Source of the DNA: Ancylobacter koreensis
Lineage (GTDB): Bacteria; Pseudomonadota; Alphaproteobacteria; Rhizobiales; Xanthobacteraceae
NCBI RefSeq assembly: GCF_023016525.1
Contig: NZ_JALKCG010000001.1
Location: forward strand, 248,001-312,000
Length of the DNA: 64,000 bases
Reading direction: 5' to 3'
The notes below the pieces were generated by a model. The model did not search any database. It saw only the letters and a list, made by a program, of their open reading frames with translations, and was not told the DNA's origin. Position numbers and translations under genes: made by a program. Of the stretch, positions 6,386 to 20,993 are shown in pieces (the first letter of the stretch is position 1; every line of letters starts with the position of its first letter).

Positions 6386-6493
6386 CCACCGCTACCGCGC
6401 CCCGTCCCCGCAAGTCCCGGAGGCGTGCCGCCGCCTGAAGTCTTCACTGGGAGACCGCCCGGCAGAGGCGGCCCCGCTCCATGGGAGGAATCT

Positions 6494-7453
6494 ATGCGCA
6501 AGACCCTGACCGGCCTGATCGCGGCGGCCATGACCGCCGCCCTCGGGACATTCGCCCTCCACGCCGAGCCGCTCGCCTATCCGCAGAAGGTCGTCACCCT
6601 CGTCACCCATTCGAGCCCGGGCGGCGGCAGTGACGTGTTCCTGCGCGAATTGAGCAAGTATCTCGGCAAGTACATCGCCGCCACCTTCGTGGTGGAGAAC
6701 GTGCAGGGCGGCAGCGGCGCCAAGGCCGTCGCCCGCGTCGCCGCGGCTCCGGCCGACGGCAGCGTGTTCTACGCCACCACGCCGACCTACATCTATACCT
6801 CGCTGCTCTCCAAGCCCTCGGCCACCTATAAGGACCTGGAGCCCTTGGTGAACATGTTCGCCGACAGCGAGGTGATCTACACGCGCGCCGACGGCCCCTA
6901 CAAGACGCTGAAGGATGTGATCGACAAGGCCAAGTCCGAGCGCGGGCGCTGGGGCGCCTCCAATCCGGCCTCGCTGGAGCGCCAGGCCGCCGAACAGCTC
7001 AAGCGCGCCGCCGGCGTCAACGCCGCCATCGTCACCCATGAGGGCGGCGGCGACATGATGCTCAACGTGCTGAACGGCACGCTCGACATCGGCATCGGCG
7101 AGATCCAGGAGCTGCGCTCGCAGATCGAGGCCGGCAAGGTGCGCCTGCTCGCCACCTTCAACCCGCAGCGCATCCCCGAGAAGCCCGATGTGCCGACCGT
7201 GAAGGAGAGCGGCTACGACGTCAGCCTCGTCAAGTTCCGCGGCCTCGCCGGCCCCAAGGGCCTGCCGGACGACGTGACCAAGGTGTGGGACACGGCGGTG
7301 AAGGCGGTGCTGGAGGATCCCGAGTACAAGAAGCGCTACACCGAGGAAGTGCTGGTGGCGAACTTCATTCCGCACGCCGAGTACCCGGCCTTCATCACCA
7401 ATTTCGCCGACACCACCGAGGCGTTCCTGAAGGAAACCGGCGCGGTCAAGTAG
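6494..7453 (+). CDS. tctC: TctC/Bug family tricarboxylate-type substrate-binding protein
   Basis: Periplasmic binding protein of a tripartite tricarboxylate transporter, 319 residues. It begins with a Sec signal peptide (MRKTLTGLIAAAMTAALG..., cleavage near HAEP). Bug-family features include the start of the mature domain (YPQKVVTLVTHSSPGGGSDV) and the loop AKPDGSVFY-like APADGSVFYATTP. A GGAGGA ribosome-binding site lies 4 nt before the ATG at 6494. It delivers substrate to TctA/TctB encoded downstream. Bug proteins bind diverse carboxylates, so the substrate cannot be assigned; the downstream MmgE/PrpD protein suggests a tricarboxylate or similar acid. Confidence 0.93.
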   Translation: MRKTLTGLIAAAMTAALGTFALHAEPLAYPQKVVTLVTHSSPGGGSDVFLRELSKYLGKYIAATFVVENVQGGSGAKAVARVAAAPADGSVFYATTPTYIYTSLLSKPSATYKDLEPLVNMFADSEVIYTRADGPYKTLKDVIDKAKSERGRWGASNPASLERQAAEQLKRAAGVNAAIVTHEGGGDMMLNVLNGTLDIGIGEIQELRSQIEAGKVRLLATFNPQRIPEKPDVPTVKESGYDVSLVKFRGLAGPKGLPDDVTKVWDTAVKAVLEDPEYKKRYTEEVLVANFIPHAEYPAFITNFADTTEAFLKETGAVK

Positions 7454-12579: not shown

Positions 12580-13803
12580 ATGGCGGCGCAGCAGCGGCGG
12601 ACGGAAGCGGTGACGGATCGCGACAGGGGCGAAGATCGGCGGCCCGACACAGGCCGGACTGACGTTGGCCGAAATGACGGGGGCCGTACCGATACCTGGC
12701 GGATCGGCGTGCTGTTCTCCCGCAAGGGCCACATGCAGATGCCGGAGACGGAGCATTTCCGCGGCACCGCGCTGGCCATCGAGGAGATCAACCTCTCCGG
12801 CGGCGTCAACGGGCGCGCCATCGAGCCGGTCTGCTACGATCCCGAATCCAGCCCCGAGCTCTATCGCCGCTATGCCGAGCGCCTGCTCACCGAGGACGGC
12901 ATCGGCACCATTTTCGGCTGCTGCGCCTCCTCCAGCCGCAAGGCGATCCTCGCCACGGTGGAACGGCGCAACGCGCTGCTCTGGTACCCCTCCCTCTATG
13001 AGGGCTTCGAATATTCGCCGAACGTGATCTACACCGGCGCGGCGCCGAACCAGAACAGCCTGCAGCTCGCGCGCTACCTGTTCGCCAATTTCGGCCGGCG
13101 CTTCTATCTCGTCGGCTCGGACTACATCTATCCCCGCGAATCCAACCGCATCATGCACGACGTGGTGGGGCGCGAGGGCGGCGAGGTGGTGGGCGAGACC
13201 TATGTACCCGTCCTGCCGCACGAGGACCAGATCCGCCGCGTGGTGGAGGACATAAGGCGCAAGGCGCCGGACGTGGTGTTCTCCACCGTGGTCGGCACCG
13301 GCGGGCAGGCCTTCTACCGCATCTTCCGCGAAGCCGGGCTCGATCCCCGCACCATGCCGGTGGCGAGCCTCACCTTTGCCGAAGGCGAGGTCGCCGCAAT
13401 AGGTCCGGAGCTGTGTGCCGGACACATCACCGCCGCGCCCTATTTCTCGACCGTCGACACACCCGCCAACCGACGCTTTGCCGCCGCCTACCGCGCCCGC
13501 TTCGGCCATGACGCGCCGGTGACGATGTATGCCGAAGCGGCCTATTTCCAGATCCACGTCTTCGCCGAGGCGTTGCGCCGGGCCGGCTCGCTCGACACGC
13601 AGCGCCTTGTCGACGCCGCGCTCGGCACCGAATACGACGCGCCGCAGGGGCGCATCCGCATCGACCCCGACAACAACCACACCTATCTGCACCCGCGCAT
13701 CGGCGTGGTGAACGCGCACGGCACCTTCGACGTGGCGTGGGAGGCGCGCGCGCCGGTGAAGCCGGACCCCTATCTCGTCGACCACGTGTACGACCATGCA
13801 TAG
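12580..13803 (+). CDS. AmiC-like amide-sensor (type I periplasmic-binding fold, no signal peptide)
   Basis: Ligand-sensing regulator, about 407 residues, related to AmiC and to urea/short-chain amide binding proteins. The type I periplasmic-binding-protein fold begins at WRIGVLFSRKGHMQMPETEH, continues through GCCASSSRKAILATVERRNALLWYPSLYEG (split over two lobes), and has the AmiC/UrtA signature GSDYIYPRESNRI. There is no signal peptide; the N-terminal ~40 residues are charged and low-complexity. That fits a cytoplasmic sensor rather than a transporter subunit. Start choice is uncertain (ATG 12580 or GTG 12610). The ANTAR regulator gene follows 42 nt downstream, as amiR follows amiC. In the Pseudomonas system AmiC sequesters AmiR until an amide binds. 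Confidence 0.88.
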   Translation: MAAQQRRTEAVTDRDRGEDRRPDTGRTDVGRNDGGRTDTWRIGVLFSRKGHMQMPETEHFRGTALAIEEINLSGGVNGRAIEPVCYDPESSPELYRRYAERLLTEDGIGTIFGCCASSSRKAILATVERRNALLWYPSLYEGFEYSPNVIYTGAAPNQNSLQLARYLFANFGRRFYLVGSDYIYPRESNRIMHDVVGREGGEVVGETYVPVLPHEDQIRRVVEDIRRKAPDVVFSTVVGTGGQAFYRIFREAGLDPRTMPVASLTFAEGEVAAIGPELCAGHITAAPYFSTVDTPANRRFAAAYRARFGHDAPVTMYAEAAYFQIHVFAEALRRAGSLDTQRLVDAALGTEYDAPQGRIRIDPDNNHTYLHPRIGVVNAHGTFDVAWEARAPVKPDPYLVDHVYDHA

Positions 13804-13845
13804 GCCCGGCGGGCGAGCCGTGCGGCGGGTCGGGGAGGCGATCGG

Positions 13846-14457
13846 GTGAGCGCCGCGGTCATCCAGAACCTGCGCAACACGCGCGTCGCCGTCGTGCATC
13901 CGCGCGACCAGGACGGCGAGGATCTGGTGCGCCAGCTCCAGCGCATCGGCTGCCAGGTGCAGATGGTCTGGCCACCGCCCGCGCAGCTTCCGCTGCCGCT
14001 CGACGCGGTGTTCTTCCTGCTCGACCGCGACACCAGGAGCTCCATGCCCTGGCGCATGGCGGATCTCAGCATCGCCCACATCGCCATCGTCGATTACGAG
14101 AATCCGACCGTGCTGAAGGCGTTGCTCGATTCGAGCGCGCATGGCGTGCTGGTGCGCCCGATCCGCGCCTCCGGCGTGCTGTCCAACCTCGTGCTGGCGC
14201 TGTCCATGCGCGGCTATGAAAGCCGGCTGCTGTCCAAGATCGCCAAGCTCGAGGACACGCTGCGCACCCGCCGCGACGTCGAGAAGGCGACGCGGCTGCT
14301 GATGGGGCTGCGCAACCTGACCGAGGACGAGGCCTACCAGTTCATCCGCAAGCAGGCGACCGCCCGCCGCGTGCCGATCGGCACCGTCGCCGCCTCGATC
14401 ATCAACGCGCAGGCCATGCTCGCCGAGCTCGGCCGCGACACGGACGGCGAGCGTTGA
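13846..14457 (+). CDS. AmiR-like transcription antiterminator with ANTAR domain
   Basis: RNA-binding antiterminator, 203 residues. The N-terminal ~125 residues form a pseudo-receiver domain like that of AmiR; I see no conventional phospho-acceptor pattern. A coiled-coil linker (about 125-150, KIAKLEDTLRTRRDVEKATR) leads into a C-terminal three-helix ANTAR domain (about 150-200, LLMGLRNLTEDEAYQFIRKQA). GTG start with GGGAGG upstream. ANTAR domains bind paired hexaloop hairpins in leader RNA and stop an intrinsic terminator from forming. The 244-nt segment directly after this gene has such a hairpin and a terminator, so the nitrilase-transporter operon downstream is its likely target. Confidence 0.92.
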   Translation: MSAAVIQNLRNTRVAVVHPRDQDGEDLVRQLQRIGCQVQMVWPPPAQLPLPLDAVFFLLDRDTRSSMPWRMADLSIAHIAIVDYENPTVLKALLDSSAHGVLVRPIRASGVLSNLVLALSMRGYESRLLSKIAKLEDTLRTRRDVEKATRLLMGLRNLTEDEAYQFIRKQATARRVPIGTVAASIINAQAMLAELGRDTDGER

Positions 14458-14581
14458 GCAAGCGGCAGAGGCATATCGCCTAGATTATAGGCATTTGAAC
14501 AAGTGCCGTACTTGTCGGCACTTCGGGCTTGACTCCGCCTTTCCGCTGCGTTTCGATGACCGTGCTCCATGGGGAGCGTCG

Positions 14582-14597
14582 GCGGCAGCGTTGCCGC
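14582..14597 (+). promoter_or_regulatory. ANTAR-type hexaloop hairpin
   Basis: A 5-bp perfect stem GCGGC/GCCGC encloses the six-base loop AGCGTT. A at loop position 1 and G at position 4 are the two conserved loop bases of known ANTAR RNA targets. The second hairpin of the pair is less clear. One candidate is AAGGCG at 14634-14639 (A1 and G4 present, weak stem, inside the terminator). Another is TGTGCA at 14611-14616 (G4 only, overlapping the 5' arm of the terminator). Confidence 0.65.
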
Positions 14598-14615
14598 TTC
14601 ACATTCAGGCTGTGC

Positions 14616-14660
14616 AGCCCTCGTTGGCGCCGGAAGGCGCTGCCGGGGGCTTTTTGTTTT
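14616..14660 (+). terminator. Intrinsic leader terminator (antitermination target)
   Basis: An outer AGCCC/GGGCT pair (14616-14620 with 14647-14651) and an inner GGCGCC-GGAA-GGCGCT hairpin (14626-14641) are followed by TTTTTGTTTT (14651-14660). It lies 41 nt before the nitrilase ATG, so it would stop transcription before the operon unless disrupted. Confidence 0.8.
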
Positions 14661-14701
14661 CGCGACGCGGGCGACCGCGGCGCCCGGAGAGGTGTGCCCA
14701 G

Positions 14702-15571
14702 ATGCCGAGTTCGAGCCTTGTTCGCGTCGCCTGCATCCAGATGGAGCCGCGCTTCGGCGACACTGCGGCCAATGTCGCCCACACGCTCGACCTCATCTCG
14801 CGCGCCGCCGACGAGGGCGCGAAGCTCGTGGTGCTGCCCGAGCTCGCCAACACCGGCTACGTCTTCGAGACGCGCGCCGAAGCCTTCGCGCTGGCCGAAA
14901 CCATTCCGGACGGCCCGACCTCGCTGGCCTGGGCGAAGATCGCCGCCGAGCGCGGCCTCTTCATCGTCGCCGGCATCACCGAGCGCGAGGGCGAGGCGCT
15001 CTACAACAGCGCCGTGGTGATCGGCCCGCAGGGCCATATCGGCACCTACCGCAAGACGCATCTGTGGGGGAACGAGAACCTGTTCTTCGAGCCGGGCAAT
15101 AACGGCTTCCCGGTGTTCCAGACCGCCATCGGGCGTATCGGCGTCGCCATCTGCTACGACGGCTGGTTCCCGGAAGTGTACCGGCTGCAGGCGCTGCAGG
15201 GCGCGGACATTGTCTGCGTGCCGACCAACTGGGTGCCGATCCCCGGCCAGGCCGAGGGGCGCGAGGCGATGGCCAACATCCTCGCCATGGCCGCCGCCCA
15301 TTCCAACTCGCTCTACATCGCCTGCGCCGACCGCATCGGCACCGAGCGCGGCCAGCCCTTCGAGGGCCAGAGCCTCATCCTCAGCTACACCGGCTGGCCC
15401 GCCGCCGGCCCGGCCAGCCGCGACGGTGAGGAGATCGTCTCCGCCGAGATCGACCTCGGCGCCGCCCGCCGCGCCCGCAACTGGAACGCCTTCAACCAGG
15501 TGCTGCGCGACCGCCGCACCGACATCTACGCCGAGATGCTCGGCTCCGACATTTCCCGCGGCTGGTACTGA
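14702..15571 (+). CDS. Nitrilase superfamily C-N hydrolase
   Basis: Cytosolic hydrolase of the nitrilase/amidase superfamily, 289 residues. The Glu-Lys-Cys triad is visible: E47 in LPELANTGY, K118 in YRKTHLW, and C151 in AICYDGWFPE, with a supporting Glu near 130. It would hydrolyse a nitrile, amide or N-carbamoyl bond and release ammonia or an amine. The start ATG 14702 lies just after the leader terminator; the frame is open upstream through the leader but that part is not protein-like. Its position first in an ABC-transporter operon under an AmiC/AmiR-like pair suggests the imported compound is its substrate. Length and motifs fit aliphatic amidohydrolases better than true aromatic nitrilases, but the exact class is open. 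Confidence 0.92.
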   Translation: MPSSSLVRVACIQMEPRFGDTAANVAHTLDLISRAADEGAKLVVLPELANTGYVFETRAEAFALAETIPDGPTSLAWAKIAAERGLFIVAGITEREGEALYNSAVVIGPQGHIGTYRKTHLWGNENLFFEPGNNGFPVFQTAIGRIGVAICYDGWFPEVYRLQALQGADIVCVPTNWVPIPGQAEGREAMANILAMAAAHSNSLYIACADRIGTERGQPFEGQSLILSYTGWPAAGPASRDGEEIVSAEIDLGAARRARNWNAFNQVLRDRRTDIYAEMLGSDISRGWY

Positions 15572-15622
15572 GCCCGCCGCGCCCGCCTGCGACACAACGA
15601 TAACCTTCCGGAGAACCAGACC

Positions 15623-16792
15623 ATGTCCCTGATGCGCATTTCACGCCGCCGGCTGCTTCTGGCCGGCACCGTCGCCGCCGGCCTGCTCGCCGGCCCGGCG
15701 CTCGCCGCCGACACCATCACCATCGGCATCCCGGTGGGCCTGTCGGGCGCCAACTCGGTGGTCGCCCCCTCGGTCGTGCAGTCCGCCGAGCTCGCCGTCG
15801 AGGAGATCAACGCCAAGGGCGGCATCCTCGGCAAGAAGGTGGTGCTCGAAGTCGCCGACGACGCCTCGGGCGCCGCCGGCGCGCAGAAGGCCTTCGATTC
15901 GCTGATCTTCCAGAAGAAGGTCGACGCGCTGATCTCCATGGAGACCTCGGCCGCCCGCAATGCCGGCCTGCCGATCGTCAACCGCGGCAAGGTCCCCTAC
16001 ATCTACACCTCGTTTTACGAGGGCCGCTCCTGCTCGCCCTACATGTATGTCAACGCCTGGGTGCCCGACCAGCAGGTCGCCCCCATCGTCGACTACTTCA
16101 AGGACAAGGGCGCCAAGACCTATTTCCTGATCGGCTCGGACTACGCCTTCGGCCGCGGCATGCTCGCCTTCACCAAGGAGTACATCGAGAAGACCGGCGG
16201 CAAGATCGTCGGCGACGAATACGCCCCGATGGACGCCACCGACTGGACCGCCATCCTCTCCAAGGTGAAGGCCGCCAACCCGGACGCCATCATCACCTCG
16301 ACCGCCGGCGGCGCGCCGAACGTGACCCTCACCAAGCAGCTGCGCGCGGCGGGCATCAAGTCGCTCTACGGCAACCTCGCCGTGGATGAGGGCACCGCGA
16401 AGTCCATGGGCCCGGACGCCGAGGGCATCTACATCGCCGGTTCCTACTTCACCAACATCGACACCCCCGCCAACAAGGCGTTCCTCGCCGCGATGGAGAA
16501 GAAGTTCGGCAAGGAGATGAAGACCCCGAACGACCTCTCCGTGCCGGAATACGAGGCAGTCTACGCTTACAAGGCGGCGGTGGAGAAGGCCGGCACGACC
16601 GACGCCGCCAAGGTCATCCCGGCGCTCGCCGAGGTGACGGTGGACGGCCCGCGCGGCGCCATCACCATGAACAAGCAGCGCCACGCGCCGCTGACCATGT
16701 ATCTCGGCCAGGTGAAGGGCGATGGCTCGGTCGACATCATCTCGACCTTCAAGGACGTCGATCCCGGCGAGCAGTGCCCCAAGCTGAAGTGA
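15623..16792 (+). CDS. Branched-chain/amide-type ABC substrate-binding protein (UrtA/LivK family)
   Basis: Periplasmic binding protein of the hydrophobic-amino-acid/amide transporter (HAAT) family, 389 residues. The N-terminus is a twin-Arg-containing signal peptide (MRISRRRLLLAGTVAAG..., cleavage at ALAA). The fold resembles the AmiC-like protein of this locus, sharing GSDY and the FTNIDTPANK / FSTVDTPANR segment. That similarity suggests sensor and transporter recognise related ligands. The ribosome-binding site is TCCGGAGAA. The gene follows the nitrilase by 51 nt and is separated from the permease genes by a stable hairpin. Confidence 0.92.
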   Translation: MSLMRISRRRLLLAGTVAAGLLAGPALAADTITIGIPVGLSGANSVVAPSVVQSAELAVEEINAKGGILGKKVVLEVADDASGAAGAQKAFDSLIFQKKVDALISMETSAARNAGLPIVNRGKVPYIYTSFYEGRSCSPYMYVNAWVPDQQVAPIVDYFKDKGAKTYFLIGSDYAFGRGMLAFTKEYIEKTGGKIVGDEYAPMDATDWTAILSKVKAANPDAIITSTAGGAPNVTLTKQLRAAGIKSLYGNLAVDEGTAKSMGPDAEGIYIAGSYFTNIDTPANKAFLAAMEKKFGKEMKTPNDLSVPEYEAVYAYKAAVEKAGTTDAAKVIPALAEVTVDGPRGAITMNKQRHAPLTMYLGQVKGDGSVDIISTFKDVDPGEQCPKLK

Positions 16793-16812
16793 GCGCCTGA
16801 CGCTCCAAACCC

Positions 16813-16839
16813 GCCATCCCCGGCCCCGCCGGGGATGGC
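16813..16839 (+). terminator. Intercistronic hairpin after the binding-protein gene
   Basis: A perfect 12-bp stem (GCCATCCCCGGC/GCCGGGGATGGC) with a 3-nt loop sits between the binding-protein and permease genes, with TTTT a few bases later. It probably reduces read-through or protects the upstream message. A repeat TGAGACGTCG occurs twice just after it. Confidence 0.6.
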
Positions 16840-16894
16840 ACGGCTTTTGAGACGTCGTCCTCTGAGACGTCGCCCGCGACCCGAAGGACCCCAC

Positions 16895-17731
16895 ATGATC
16901 GCCCAGACGCTGGACATCGTGACGACCGCCGCCATCCTCTATGCGGTGGCGACCGGGCTGCTGCTCGTGTTCGGCGTCATGAAGATCATCAATTTCGCCC
17001 ATGGGGGGCTGATGACGCTCGGCGGCTATGCCGCGCTCATCGCCACCCAGGCCGGGCTCAACCCGTGGCTCGCCATCCCGCTCGCGGCGCTGTTCGGCGG
17101 CGTCGCCGGCATGGCCATCGAGCGCTTCGTGGTGCGCCCGCTCTACGCCCGCCCGCTCGACGCCATCCTCGCCACCTGGGGTCTGTCGATCATCATCGGG
17201 CAGGTCATCACCCTCGTCTTCGGGCGCGGCGTGCAGTTCACGCAGGCCCCGCTCGAAGGCACGCTCGACCTGTTCGGCGAGAGCTATTCCGCCTACCGCC
17301 TCGCGCTGGTGGGCATCGCCGCCGCGCTCGGCCTCGCGCTCACCGCGCTGCTGCAGGGCACGCGCCTCGGGCTGGAGACCCGCGCGGTCATCATGAACGA
17401 GGACCTCGCGCGCGGGCTCGGCATCAACAGCGCGCTGGTGCGCTTCATCACCTTCACACTCGGCTCGGCGCTGGCCGGCGTCGCCGGCGCGCTGATCACG
17501 CCGCTGTCGAGCGTCGACCCCAACATGGGCGTGCCCTGGCTGGTGAACGCCTTCATGCTGGTGCTGGTCTCCGGCGCCTCGCTCGCCAGCCTGCTGGCGG
17601 CCTGCCTGGTGCTGGGCGGCGCGCAGGTGCTGGTGGCGACCCATCTCAGCCCGGTGCTCGGCGGGCTCACCATCGCCGTGCTCGCCGCCGTCATCCTGCG
17701 CATCCGTCCTCAGGGGTTCGCCCGTGACTGA
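16895..17731 (+). CDS. HAAT ABC transporter permease (LivH/UrtB type)
   Basis: Inner-membrane permease, 278 residues with about eight helices. It shows the LivH signature GVMKIINFAHGGLMTLGGYAA near residue 30 and the loop AVIMNEDLARGLGINSALVRF that contacts the ATPase. The ATG at 16895 was chosen because LivH homology starts there. The 3' end overlaps the next gene by 8 nt, indicating translational coupling. It works with the fused LivM-LivG protein and LivF. Confidence 0.92.
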   Translation: MIAQTLDIVTTAAILYAVATGLLLVFGVMKIINFAHGGLMTLGGYAALIATQAGLNPWLAIPLAALFGGVAGMAIERFVVRPLYARPLDAILATWGLSIIIGQVITLVFGRGVQFTQAPLEGTLDLFGESYSAYRLALVGIAAALGLALTALLQGTRLGLETRAVIMNEDLARGLGINSALVRFITFTLGSALAGVAGALITPLSSVDPNMGVPWLVNAFMLVLVSGASLASLLAACLVLGGAQVLVATHLSPVLGGLTIAVLAAVILRIRPQGFARD

Positions 17732-19556
17732 AGCGCGCCGCCTGTCCCTCATCCTCGCCGTCGCGCTGCTCGCGCTCGGCGCAATCTTCGCCGGCCCCTA
17801 TGTGCTCGACACCTATTCGGTGAACGTGCTCACCCGCTCGCTGCTCTACGCGGCGGTGGCGCTGACCGTCGACCTCCTATGGGGCTATCTGGGCATCCTC
17901 ACCTTCGGCCAGTCGGTGTTCTTCGCCTGCGGCGCCTATGCCGCCGGCCTCGTCTTCACCCATATGGACTTCAGCGAGGGCAACGCCGTTCTCGCGCTGG
18001 CACTCGGCGTCGGCGGCGCGCTGCTGGTGGCCGCCATCGTCGGCTGGCTCGCCTTCTGGCACGGCGCCTCGGCGCTCTATGCCTCGGTCATCACGCTGGT
18101 GCTGCCCATCGTGGCGACGCAGCTGCTCTATTCCGGCGGCACCTTCACCGGCTCGTCGAGCGGCCTCTCCGGCTTCATGAGTTTCGACCTCTCCATGGAG
18201 GCGTGGTTCTGGCTGGCGGGCAGCTTCCTCGTGGCGGTGACGACGCTCGCCTATATCGTGGTGCAAAGCGATGCCGGACGGCTGCTGGTCGCCGTGCGCG
18301 AGAACGAGCAGCGCTGCAAATATCTCGGCCTCGACACCTCGCGGCTGAAGATCCTCGTCTATCTCGCCTGCGCCGTGATCGGCGCGATCGCCGGCTACAT
18401 CTATGCCGGCTACGCGATGGTGGTGGCGCCCGAGCTCGCCGGCTTCGTCTTCGGCACCGAACTCGTCATCTGGACCGCGCTCGGCGGGCGCGGCACCTTG
18501 CTCGGGCCGGTGTTCGGCGCGCTGATCGTCGATTATGAGAGCGCCCAGCTCGCCGGCGACTATCCCTTCGTCTGGCAGCTCATCATCGGCACGCTGTTCG
18601 TGCTGGTTATCATCGCCTTCCCGCGCGGCCTGCTGCCGGTGCTGTTCGACATTCCGCGCAAGGCGCTCGGCCTTGTCCGCAAGCGCCCCGCCGCGCCGCC
18701 CGCCAGCGTCACCCTCTCGACGCTCGATGCCGCCGAGACGCAGGGCGAGGAGGTCGGCGACGACGGCCCGGCGCTCGCCGTGCACGGTGTCGCCCGGCGC
18801 TTCGGCAGCCTCAACGTGCTGGAGGCGATCGACTTCGAGGCCCGCGCGGGCGAACTCGTCAGCCTCGTCGGCCCGAACGGCGCCGGCAAGACCACGCTGA
18901 TGCGCTGCATTGCCGACGGCGCCGAGCGCTCGGCCGGCACCATCGTCATCAATGGCCACGATATCGGCCGCAAGCCGCCGGAAGCCTGCGTCGCCCTCGG
19001 CGTCGGCCGCAAGTTCCAGATGGCCAATGTGTTCGAGACCTTGACCGTCGCGCAGTGCCTGCAGATCGCCCGCGCCCGCCATGCCCGCCCCTCGTTGTGG
19101 CGCCGGGCGCGGGAACTGCCGCTGCCGGAAGCCGCGATGCACGTGCTGGCCACGACGGGGCTGGACCGGCAGCTTTCCACCCCCGCCCACCTGCTCTCGC
19201 ACGGCATGAAGCAGGCGCTGGAGCTTTCCATGGTGCTTGCGCTGGAACCGCGCGTGCTGCTGCTCGACGAGCCCACCGCCGGCCTGACCAAGACCGAGCG
19301 CATGCAGATCGGCGCCATCCTCATCGACCTGACGAAGAAGCAGGGCCTGTGCGTGCTGCTGGTCGAGCACGATCTCGATTTCGTGCGGGAGATTTCCTCG
19401 CGGGTCATCGTGCTGCATCAGGGCCGCATCGTGCTCGACGGCTCGGTGGAAGAGGTGGTCGCCTCCGAGCTGGTCAAGCAGGTCTATGCCGGTTCCGGCC
19501 ATGCCGGCATCGCGCATGAGAGCGGGCCCTCCACCGCGCAGGAGATGCCGGCATGA
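17724..19556 (+). CDS. Fused HAAT permease-ATPase (LivM-LivG)
   Basis: Single 610-residue polypeptide. The N-terminal ~315 residues are a LivM-type permease (multiple helices, signature GYLGILTFGQSVFFACGAYA). The C-terminal ~270 residues are a LivG-type ATPase. The ATPase has Walker A GPNGAGKTT (about residues 383-391), an atypical signature segment LSHGMKQALELS in place of LSGGQ, and Walker B VLLLDEPTAGLT. An acidic linker (TLDAAETQGEEVGDDG) joins them. The reading frame is uninterrupted through the junction, so the fusion looks real. GTG start, overlapping the upstream permease. ATGA overlap joins it to LivF. Confidence 0.93.
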   Translation: MTEARRLSLILAVALLALGAIFAGPYVLDTYSVNVLTRSLLYAAVALTVDLLWGYLGILTFGQSVFFACGAYAAGLVFTHMDFSEGNAVLALALGVGGALLVAAIVGWLAFWHGASALYASVITLVLPIVATQLLYSGGTFTGSSSGLSGFMSFDLSMEAWFWLAGSFLVAVTTLAYIVVQSDAGRLLVAVRENEQRCKYLGLDTSRLKILVYLACAVIGAIAGYIYAGYAMVVAPELAGFVFGTELVIWTALGGRGTLLGPVFGALIVDYESAQLAGDYPFVWQLIIGTLFVLVIIAFPRGLLPVLFDIPRKALGLVRKRPAAPPASVTLSTLDAAETQGEEVGDDGPALAVHGVARRFGSLNVLEAIDFEARAGELVSLVGPNGAGKTTLMRCIADGAERSAGTIVINGHDIGRKPPEACVALGVGRKFQMANVFETLTVAQCLQIARARHARPSLWRRARELPLPEAAMHVLATTGLDRQLSTPAHLLSHGMKQALELSMVLALEPRVLLLDEPTAGLTKTERMQIGAILIDLTKKQGLCVLLVEHDLDFVREISSRVIVLHQGRIVLDGSVEEVVASELVKQVYAGSGHAGIAHESGPSTAQEMPA

Positions 19557-20251
19557 ACGCGCTTGAGATCGACGGCCTCTCCAGCGGCTATGCCGGCGCC
19601 GTGGTGGTGCGCGAGGTGAGCCTTGCCCTCGCGCAGGGCGAGATCCTCGCCGTGCTCGGCAAGAACGGCATGGGCAAGTCGACGCTGCTGAAGGCAACCA
19701 TGGGCTTCCTGCCCAAAATGGCCGGCACCGTCGCCATCGCCGGCACCGAGGCGACGCGGCTCGCGCCCCACCGCGTGGCGCGGCTGGGCGTCGGCTATGT
19801 CGCGCAGGAGAAGGCGCTGTTCCAGGACCTGACCGTCGAGGAAAATCTCCGCCTCGCCGTGCGTCGGCCGGATTTCGAGGCGGCGTTGGCGGAGGTGGAG
19901 GCCTCCTTCCCCTTCCTGCTGCAACGGCTGAAGCAGCGCGCCGGCACGCTGTCGGGCGGCGAGCAGAAGATGCTGCTGATGGCGCGTTCGCTGGCGACCG
20001 GGGCGAAGCTGCTCATGGTCGACGAAATCACCGAGGGGCTGCAGCCCTCCGTCATCGACCGGCTCGCCGGCGTCATCCGCGCCTGCCGCGAGCGGCACGG
20101 CACGACGATGCTGCTGGTGGAGCAGCATCTGCCCTTCGCCCTCGCCGTCGCCGACCGCTGGGCGGTGCTCGACCGCGGCGAGATCGCCGAGACGGGCGCC
20201 TCCTCCGAACCCGACGCCCGCGCCCGCGTGCTGAAGCATCTGAGCGTGTAA
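19553..20251 (+). CDS. HAAT ABC transporter ATP-binding protein (LivF/UrtE type)
   Basis: Cytoplasmic ATPase of 232 residues, second nucleotide-binding subunit of the importer. It has Walker A GKNGMGKST (about residues 37-45), Q-loop YVAQEKALF, signature LSGGEQKM, Walker B LLMVDEITEGLQ and the H-loop in LLVEQHL. LivF/UrtE proteins share the EITEGLQP pattern. It overlaps the fused permease-ATPase gene by ATGA. Confidence 0.95.
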   Translation: MNALEIDGLSSGYAGAVVVREVSLALAQGEILAVLGKNGMGKSTLLKATMGFLPKMAGTVAIAGTEATRLAPHRVARLGVGYVAQEKALFQDLTVEENLRLAVRRPDFEAALAEVEASFPFLLQRLKQRAGTLSGGEQKMLLMARSLATGAKLLMVDEITEGLQPSVIDRLAGVIRACRERHGTTMLLVEQHLPFALAVADRWAVLDRGEIAETGASSEPDARARVLKHLSV

Positions 20252-20261
20252 GGAGCCGCGC

Positions 20262-20993
20262 GTGACCTTCTCCATCGTCGCCCGCTGCCCCCTCACCGGC
20301 CGCCTCGGCGTCGCGGTGGCCACCGCCGTGCCCGCGGTCGGCTCCATGTGCCCCTTCACCCGGGCGGGCACGGGGGCGGTCTCCACCCAGTCCTGGGTCA
20401 ACCCCTATCTCGCCCTCGGCGTGCTCGACCTCATCGCCGGCGGCGCGCGGGCACCGGAGGCGCTGGCCGCCGTTCTGGAGAAGGACGCCGCGCGCGAGTT
20501 GCGCCAGATCGGCGTCGTCGACGCGGCCGGACGGGCAAGCGCCTTCACCGGCGCGGAATGCACGCCGTGGTGCGGACAGGAGACCGGCGAAGGCTTCGCG
20601 GTGCAGGGCAACATGCTGACCGGGCCCGAGGTGATCGCCGTCATGGCGAGCGCCTTCCGCGCCTCGACCGGCGCCCCGCTCGACGAGCGGCTGATGCGCG
20701 CCATGGAGGCGGGAGACGCCGCCGGCGGCGACAAACGCGGGCGCCAGTCCGCCAGCCTGCGGATACAGGGCGCCGAGGATTATCCCGCGCTTGACCTGCG
20801 GGTCGACGAGCATCCCGCCCCGATCGCCGAGTTGCGCCGGGTGCTGGAGATCGCCCGGCTTCAGCTCGTGCCCTTCGTCGAGGGCATGCCGAAGCGCGAC
20901 GCGCCTCCCGGCCCGGCGCCGGAGTCGGTCACCGCCATGCTCGCGCTGTCCCCGCCGCAGCGGCCAGGCGGAGGCGGCAGCGCACCTGACTGA
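20262..20993 (+). CDS. DUF1028 family protein (Ntn-hydrolase-like)
   Basis: Cytosolic protein of 243 residues in the DUF1028 family, which has a predicted Ntn-hydrolase-like fold. The family start TFSIVARCPLTGRLGVAVAT and the stretch AVSTQSWVNPYL are visible. GTG start preceded by AGGAG, 10 nt after livF, so it belongs to the same operon. DUF1028 genes are often found with transport and amidohydrolase genes, and a peptidase or amidase role has been suggested but not settled. Here it could process the imported compound or the nitrilase product. Confidence 0.85.
   Translation: MTFSIVARCPLTGRLGVAVATAVPAVGSMCPFTRAGTGAVSTQSWVNPYLALGVLDLIAGGARAPEALAAVLEKDAARELRQIGVVDAAGRASAFTGAECTPWCGQETGEGFAVQGNMLTGPEVIAVMASAFRASTGAPLDERLMRAMEAGDAAGGDKRGRQSASLRIQGAEDYPALDLRVDEHPAPIAELRRVLEIARLQLVPFVEGMPKRDAPPGPAPESVTAMLALSPPQRPGGGGSAPD

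Follow-up and report, generated by a model that had tools for sequence, protein, structure and literature searches.

A predicted AmiC/AmiR-type antitermination circuit with a conserved leader RNA upstream of a nitrilase-superfamily and importer operon in Ancylobacter koreensis

The operon and its leader RNA

We analyzed a 64,000-nucleotide (nt) stretch of the 4.06-Mb genome of Ancylobacter koreensis (G000:C11:248001-312000), here referred to as the window, in which genes for an AmiC-like sensor and an AmiR-like antiterminator precede a leader RNA, a CN_hydrolase enzyme (Nit), an ABC importer, and a DUF1028 protein, all on the plus strand. An earlier interpretation made without database searches (the sequence-only reading) had proposed that this locus is controlled by the same antitermination logic as the Pseudomonas amidase operon. 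The first gene (positions 12580 to 13803, with a possible alternative GTG start at 12610) encodes a ligand sensor of the type-I periplasmic binding protein (PBP) fold. Its closest solved structure is AmiC of P. aeruginosa (1QNL/1PEA; E value of 1e-99), and its score against TIGR03407 (347.8 bits) lies under the cut-off of 492.75. No signal peptide was seen when the translation was judged by eye, as the sequence-only reading had also noticed. The second gene (13846 to 14457) encodes a protein with an AmiR_N pseudo-receiver (Pfam, 128 bits) and an ANTAR domain (55 bits), whose closest solved structure is AmiR of P. aeruginosa (E value of 7e-25), which agrees with its initial description as an ANTAR regulator.

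After a gap of 244 nt follows the nit gene (14702 to 15571; CN_hydrolase, 192 bits). The best solved relatives of Nit are PH0642 and a structure named "nitrilase" (E values of 6e-64 to 8e-63), both presumably of Pyrococcus origin. Nit scored below every NCBIfam cut-off, the best being nitrile_Arch (NF040852; 242 of 500 bits); it did not reach that of Nit6803 (52.1 bits; cut-off, 502.6), and it is not an AmiE equivalog (PRK13286; 62.5 bits versus a cut-off of 427), AmiE itself falling in the same CN_hydrolase superfamily. Because no such cut-off was reached, the name nitrilase given to the enzyme at the outset holds for Nit as a superfamily name only. Residues Glu47, Lys118, and Cys151, which we take to be the catalytic triad, were unchanged across 22 aligned sequences. 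Downstream, family matches identified an importer spread over four genes, encoding a HAAT-type periplasmic binding protein (15623 to 16792; also supported by structure matches), a UrtB/LivH-like permease (16835 to 17731, with a start possibly at 16895), a UrtC+UrtD-like permease-ATPase fusion (17724 to 19556), and a UrtE-like ATPase (19553 to 20251). The DUF1028 gene (20262 to 20993) comes next and was present in 20 of the 23 orthologous loci first fetched. The five-gene transporter/DUF1028 operon described previously was thus recovered in full.

The gap between amiR and nit contains two small hairpins and an intrinsic terminator. Hairpin P1 (GCGGC-AGCGUU-GCCGC; 14582 to 14597) carries a loop with A1 and G4 in which A1 and U6 are able to pair, and hairpin P2 (GGC-UGUGCA-GCC; 14608 to 14619), which the sequence-only reading had not named, carries a loop with U1, G4, and A6. 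The terminator stem (14616 to 14651) is followed by a T tract (14651 to 14660) that ends 41 nt before the nit ATG; the stem folds with −27.5 kcal/mol, and none of 200 dinucleotide shuffles was equally good, so that the proposed T-tailed terminator stands. Since the 3′ arm of P2 is at the same time the start of the terminator, the two structures are mutually exclusive. This architecture corresponds to that of known ANTAR targets, which, in the part of PMC3369931 considered here, consist of two small hairpins, the second of which excludes the terminator, with hexanucleotide loops having A1 and G4 in both hairpins. The P1 loop of the window agrees with this rule, while the P2 loop has the G4 and lacks the A1. 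Both loops comprise six bases between conserved stem arms, yet RNA folding closes positions 1 and 6 of each. At the gathering threshold, the window leader had no match in Rfam.

A promoter-like sequence, TTGACT-N17-TTCGAT, lies ahead of the leader at 14529 to 14557. Among the 96 distinct leaders to which 118 leader hits were reduced, TTGAC was found at most 120 nt upstream in 77, versus 4 for a control region placed another 300 nt upstream. Together, these observations suggest that the transcript starts near 14564 and that the leader RNA is about 140 nt long; the 244 nt originally assigned to the leader would then be the length of the gap. A third candidate hairpin, P0, located just 5′ of P1 and resembling a six-base-loop hairpin in some outer leaders, was rejected, since its folding energy did not differ convincingly from that of shuffled sequences (median z of −0.33; z < −2 in only 9 of 96 leaders).

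Conservation of the leader and co-occurrence with AmiC and AmiR

A relative of AmiR with 62 to 94% identity was encoded by 19 of the 29 genus relatives; in four further genomes, relatives with 46 to 53% identity were neighbors of a nit gene. Of the 11 named loci whose AmiR is 82 to 90% identical, 9 were Ancylobacter and 2 Xanthobacteraceae. The sensor, AmiR, Nit, binding protein, permease, permease-ATPase, and ATPase genes were arranged in one order in all 23 fetched loci, and the circuit family was found in Ancylobacter, Bradyrhizobium, Rhizobium, Mesorhizobium, Paracoccus, Methylobacterium, and Betaproteobacteria.

In an alignment of 24 leaders, including that of the window, 96.4% of the terminator cells were paired, and seven pairs showed changes on both sides, a degree of covariation matched by none of 500 shuffles. 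The P1 and P2 stems were paired in 99.5% of cells and contained three double-change pairs, all of them within P1; on a set of 31 distinct elements, the P1 covariation was likewise reached by none of 500 shuffles. Compensatory changes, which had been suggested as a check on the leader, are therefore present in both the terminator and P1. Conservation of the hairpin and terminator in orthologous loci, whose absence had been set beforehand as one of two refuting outcomes, was also observed: a T tract of at least four residues occurred in 94 of the 94 leaders with a readable P2, the terminator fold had z < −3 in 93, and the 3′ arm of P2 was paired inside the terminator fold in 91. The linker between P1 and P2 measured 7 to 14 nt, and 9 to 11 nt in 80 of these leaders.

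We then relied on R1, a covariance model of P1 and the terminator trained on 24 AmiR-Nit leaders including the window leader. With filters off, R1 scored the window leader at 100 bits (E value of 6e-23), the next nonoverlapping match in the window had an E value of 0.07, and the whole genome gave one match at an E value of ≤0.1. The 24 best matches in 151 genomes (E values of 3e-21 to 2e-9) were the 24 training leaders, as expected of a model trained on them. The next five, untrained matches (E values of 2e-5 to 0.0025; G003, G001 with two, G027, and G029, four genomes of the genus) were located just 3′ of a paralogous amiR in four cases and just 5′ of a paralogous amiC in one; among 14 weaker matches with E values up to 0.08, the one in G117 also lay 5′ of a paralogous amiC.

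Two further searches linked the leader to the regulator genes. Among 397 genomes of the order, 35 encoded a Nit relative (E value of ≤1e-60); 30 of these, from outside the training set, were newly fetched, and the other five had already been included. All 17 untrained nit loci with amiC and amiR carried the leader in between (E values of 2e-13 to 9e-10), while 12 of the 13 untrained nit loci without these genes gave no R1 match up to an E value of 1. A scan with AmiR alone, covering one genome per species in 84,980 species, yielded 131 relatives, of which the best 80 were kept, some of them training genomes under their own names. The leader was detected at an E value of ≤0.05 in 76 of these best 80 of 131 loci, in 73 of them at 2.1e-5 or better, and Nit was encoded within the stretch in 71; the four loci without a leader match were L202, L208, L210, and L248. 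Six loci from Betaproteobacteria had the leader immediately upstream of the importer; nit was the last gene of the operon in one of these genomes (L287).

Some terminator is to be expected downstream of amiR anyway, and the leader could be an ordinary attenuator or the terminator of the amiC-amiR transcript, with AmiR acting elsewhere or not on nit. Locus L148, which has an R1 match (3e-6) and lacks amiC and amiR in the 12 kb examined, fits this alternative. However, P1 and its spacing to P2 have been retained across families although other sequence has changed, the leader is missing from 12 of the 13 untrained nit loci without the regulator genes, and the promoter-like TTGAC just before P1 recurs in most leaders. 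We therefore regard this explanation as improbable.

The best reading of the locus is that a conserved AmiC/AmiR-type ANTAR antitermination circuit precedes the nit-importer-DUF1028 operon, and we assign this prediction a probability of roughly 0.87. Several observations weigh against it. Besides L148, these include L202, in which amiC, amiR, and nit are present and no leader match was obtained. The P2 stem was invariant in the 24 leaders and hence showed no covariation, and two slid versions of P1 and P2 covaried more than the actual one (0.153 and 0.137 versus 0.130), although their pairing extended to just 55 and 68% of cells, with no double changes. Position 4 of the P1 loop was G in just 55 of 88 leaders. 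Finally, a strict consensus scan of the window leader found neither a promoter nor a terminator, its terminator pattern, as we interpret it, allowing no mismatches of the kind present in the window stem.

In such a circuit, the AmiC-like protein would hold the AmiR-like protein in the absence of ligand. RNA polymerase starting within the amiR-nit gap would transcribe the leader, the terminator at 14616 to 14651 would fold, and transcription would halt before nit. Binding of a small nitrogen ligand, possibly amide-like, to AmiC would free AmiR, whose ANTAR dimer would then bind P1 and P2. As P2 would thereby retain the 5′ arm of the terminator, the nit-importer-DUF1028 operon would be read.

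AmiR residue 172 and the closing of the leader loops

The complex of EutV with its RNA provides a reference for how an ANTAR domain contacts these loops. According to the portion of PMC8934654 used here, G4 is stacked against Tyr164, with Arg142, Lys149, and Glu160 holding it in place; Met172 lies inside the loop, is essential for RNA binding, and was proposed to exclude tetraloops; and A1 makes no specific contact and was proposed to hinder cross-loop pairing. The AmiR of the window has Thr at the positions of both Met172 (located by gap-free alignments) and Lys149. Comparison of 146 AmiR rows, one of them a frame fragment, revealed 117 Thr, 2 Ser (both Albimonas, L240 and L251), and 26 Met at position 172; the 122 distinct proteins, excluding the fragment, comprised 96 Thr, 24 Met, and 2 Ser. 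This distribution followed the operon. The Thr and Ser rows adjoined this importer family, and the 120 rows of the operon family contained 117 Thr, 2 Ser, and a single Met, that of L212, with nit adjoining. Two further AmiRs within the operon (L287 and L289) had Thr when read by eye, and AmiRs outside the operon had Met in 42 of 42 cases, 17 of which were read by eye. Lys149 occurred in none of the 119 Thr or Ser rows, compared with 22 of 26 Met rows. Other residues were retained in the 117 Thr rows, namely, Tyr164 in 114, Arg168 in 116, and Arg175 in 115.

The leaders that accompany Thr-type AmiRs have loops whose first and last positions are nearly always complementary. In the 84 readable P1 hairpins (at least four stem pairs), positions 1 and 6 were A-U in 69, C-G in 12, U-A in 2, and A-C in 1, and were thus complementary in 83; in P2, they were U-A in 89 of 89, with A1 in none. 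G4 was present beside Thr-type AmiRs in 52 of 84 P1 and 85 of 89 P2 loops, and A1 and G4 occurred together in P1 of 50 of the 84 leaders. The A1/G4 hexaloop reported earlier at 14582 to 14597 is thus real in the window (AGCGUU), but its A1 is not conserved as such: some leaders have C or U there, together with a change at position 6. On the 31 distinct elements, the 1-6 pair of P1 was formed in 93.5%, a value not attained by any of 500 shuffles and well above that of slid versions (at most 58%). Exceptions amounted to 14 of the 96 distinct leaders: P1 was weak or different in L054, L148, L197, L203, L206, L209, L213, and L243; a six-base P2 was absent from L156 and L157; A-C occupied positions 1 and 6 of P1 in L225, L240, and L251; and L212 had the only six-base P2 loop that was not U-A (AAGUCC). 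L212 also encodes the operon's only Met172 AmiR, and L240 and L251 encode both Ser172 AmiRs, the nonpairing A-C of L225 occurring beside a Thr-type protein. L212 and the Ser172 loci thus both point toward a link between residue 172 and loop closure.

For comparison, 23 leaders of Met-type AmiRs were read by eye, with P1 left unread in the first L167 hit and P2 in L073. Positions 1 and 6 of P1 formed Watson-Crick pairs in 9 of 22 (12 including G-U), with A1 in 19, and those of P2 in 6 of 22, with A1 in 5. RNA folding closed the 1-6 pair in 82 of 88 P1 and 93 of 94 P2 hairpins of the operon family versus 12 of 22 Met-type P1 hairpins. Folding of 32-nt pieces confirmed the hand reading in 21 of 22 cases (12 closed including G-U, 9 open; L060 was mislocated), and shorter pieces folded differently in L062 and L072. 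These limits on reading and folding Met-type P1 hairpins make P1 a weaker basis than P2 for setting Thr and Met types apart. In several Met-type P1 hairpins (L062:9842-9913 and others), the stem position directly beneath the closing C-G pair was mismatched.

How often these changes arose was estimated on a tree built by a quick method, with several long branches and with residues 149 and 172 excluded. The tree required just two changes at position 1 of P1 (A to C and A to U), each together with the matching change at position 6; pairing of 1 and 6 in P1 was lost twice, and residue 172 changed about four times, two of these changes being forced by starred branches. With so few changes, the tree does not support counting Thr172 with closed loops as many independent events; only a small number of events underlies the covariation, and the link between Thr172 and closed loops may be a single evolutionary event, so that kinship counts against it. 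With two pairs, a sign test could not reach significance, and the Fisher value for Thr versus Met ignores kinship and was not used as a probability.

In the best reading of the locus given above, the reading rule is taken to have changed in this branch of the family, in that AmiR lacks the loop-plugging Met and the loops can be closed by the 1-6 pair and might stay closed in the complex. Two further explanations of this pattern were weighed. It is possible, though we rate it clearly below even odds, that this AmiR branch, having exchanged Met172 and Lys149, now reads the closed loops as, in effect, tetraloops, so that two circuits could operate in one cell without cross talk. We give nearly an even chance to the other explanation, that the circuit works exactly as AmiC/AmiR of P. 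aeruginosa and that Thr172 and the 1-6 pattern reflect neutral drift in one lineage. The few origins of Thr172 and the two changes of P1 position 1 are in line with drift, as are the many Met-type P1 loops that also pair 1 with 6 and the absence of A1 from loop 2 of most Met-type paralogs. It is less readily reconciled with the matching change of position 6 at both changes of P1 position 1, with the invariant pairing in Thr-type P2 loops as opposed to Met-type ones, with the coincidence of the one Met172 AmiR and the one six-base non-U-A P2 loop in L212, and with the essential role of Met172 in RNA binding by EutV, as given in the cited part of PMC8934654. The proposal of the sequence-only reading that the antitermination logic is the same is supported by the conserved P1, P2, and terminator, apart from the U that opens loop 2 and the absence from AmiR of the Met that contacts the RNA.

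Parallel circuits, known systems, and related loci

The same genome harbors a second AmiC-AmiR pair (G000:C12; L062), in which AmiR has Met172 and Lys149 and which is followed by a leader-like element and a true AmiE equivalog (724.5 bits versus a cut-off of 427). R1 recognized this element with an E value of only 0.098, and neither of its loops, read as AAGGCC and GGUGUA, is able to form a 1-6 pair. The two circuits thus share AmiC, AmiR, a leader or leader-like element, and a CN_hydrolase enzyme and differ in the residues and loops described above. A changed reading rule could plausibly be explained by the need to keep such circuits separate.

The circuit of the window resembles the amidase operon of P. 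aeruginosa (1QNL, 1PEA, and 1QO0; PMC3369931, as far as it was consulted) in its AmiC-like sensor, its AmiR_N plus ANTAR regulator, and its two-hairpin leader with an overlapping terminator before a CN-hydrolase gene. Unlike that operon, it has a non-AmiE enzyme followed by a HAAT importer and DUF1028, regulator genes upstream of the leader, Thr172, and U1 in loop 2. The gene order of the Pseudomonas operon is reportedly different, its regulator genes not lying upstream of the leader. With the EutV/eutP complex (6WW6), the window circuit shares the ANTAR domain, the dual hairpin, G4 of loop 2, and Tyr164; EutV differs, in the portion of PMC8934654 drawn upon, in its control by phosphorylation, the Met172 plug, Lys149, and A1 in both RNA loops. 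Judged by its sequence, the circuit is a widespread cousin of the known Pseudomonas circuit in which the RNA-reading protein and the loops appear to depart from the textbook rule.

About 400 ANTAR RNAs are known in firmicutes and proteobacteria, as stated in the section of PMC8164766 used, and single leaders of the present kind may already be among the RNAs predicted in the supplementary tables of PMC3369931. Among the titles and abstract openings listed by searches of open full text, none described this operon or a Thr-type ANTAR protein. One predicted circuit becomes a family with a conserved regulatory RNA, and its protein-RNA pair deviates from the published rule for ANTAR proteins at the very contact proposed to gauge loop size, which makes the roles of A1 and Met172 testable. 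If the loops are indeed read closed, the family would constitute a natural test of the proposal, found in the cited part of PMC8934654, that Met172 keeps tetraloops out. The family also offers candidate mutually insulated antiterminators.

A third ANTAR gene of the genome (G000:C11:734742; L068) has as neighbors genes for an AmiC-like sensor of the PBP5 type, a HAAT importer, FmdA, and a protein with two CN_hydrolase stretches (L068:838-10472); the ANTAR protein there has no AmiR_N at the threshold applied, and R1 found no leader in L068. In five Met-type loci, an ANTAR-like leader lay just 5′ of amiC (L164:6771-6843, L067:11605-11678, L071:10317-10393, L165:8988-9064, and L167:9222-9287; R1 E values of 2.5e-5 to 0.008), an arrangement in which the regulator genes would control themselves; no match at this place was found in the searched Thr-type loci (E value of ≤2 or ≤0.05, depending on the set). 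Locus L298 showed tandem leader-like matches 3′ of a Met-type amiR (6389 to 6591; E values of 0.0005 and 0.0008) and a further one about 2.7 kb upstream of amiC.

The sensor and the importer binding protein both matched type-I PBP families and solved structures, in line with the common fold proposed for them at first. That they also bind the same ligand was not supported, as the compared positions, which we take to be pocket positions from the AmiC structure, differ: in 16 loci and the window, position 83 is Glu in the importer proteins and Cys, Ser, Leu, or His in the sensors, and position 133 of the importer proteins is Asp or Asn. The neighbors of nit genes without amiC and amiR gave no common clue to the substrate either, for which the sequence-only reading had proposed an amide or nitrile; ten neighbors in four loci comprised HTH-cupin regulators, NMT1-type and HAAT binding proteins, a permease, an M20 peptidase, a GATase1-like protein, and two proteins without a family. 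In L136 and L138, the nit gene without amiC and amiR adjoins HTH-cupin regulators, an apparent change of control mode. Locus L155 (G460) represents a decaying or misassembled copy, with AmiR and the binding protein of the importer split over two frames.

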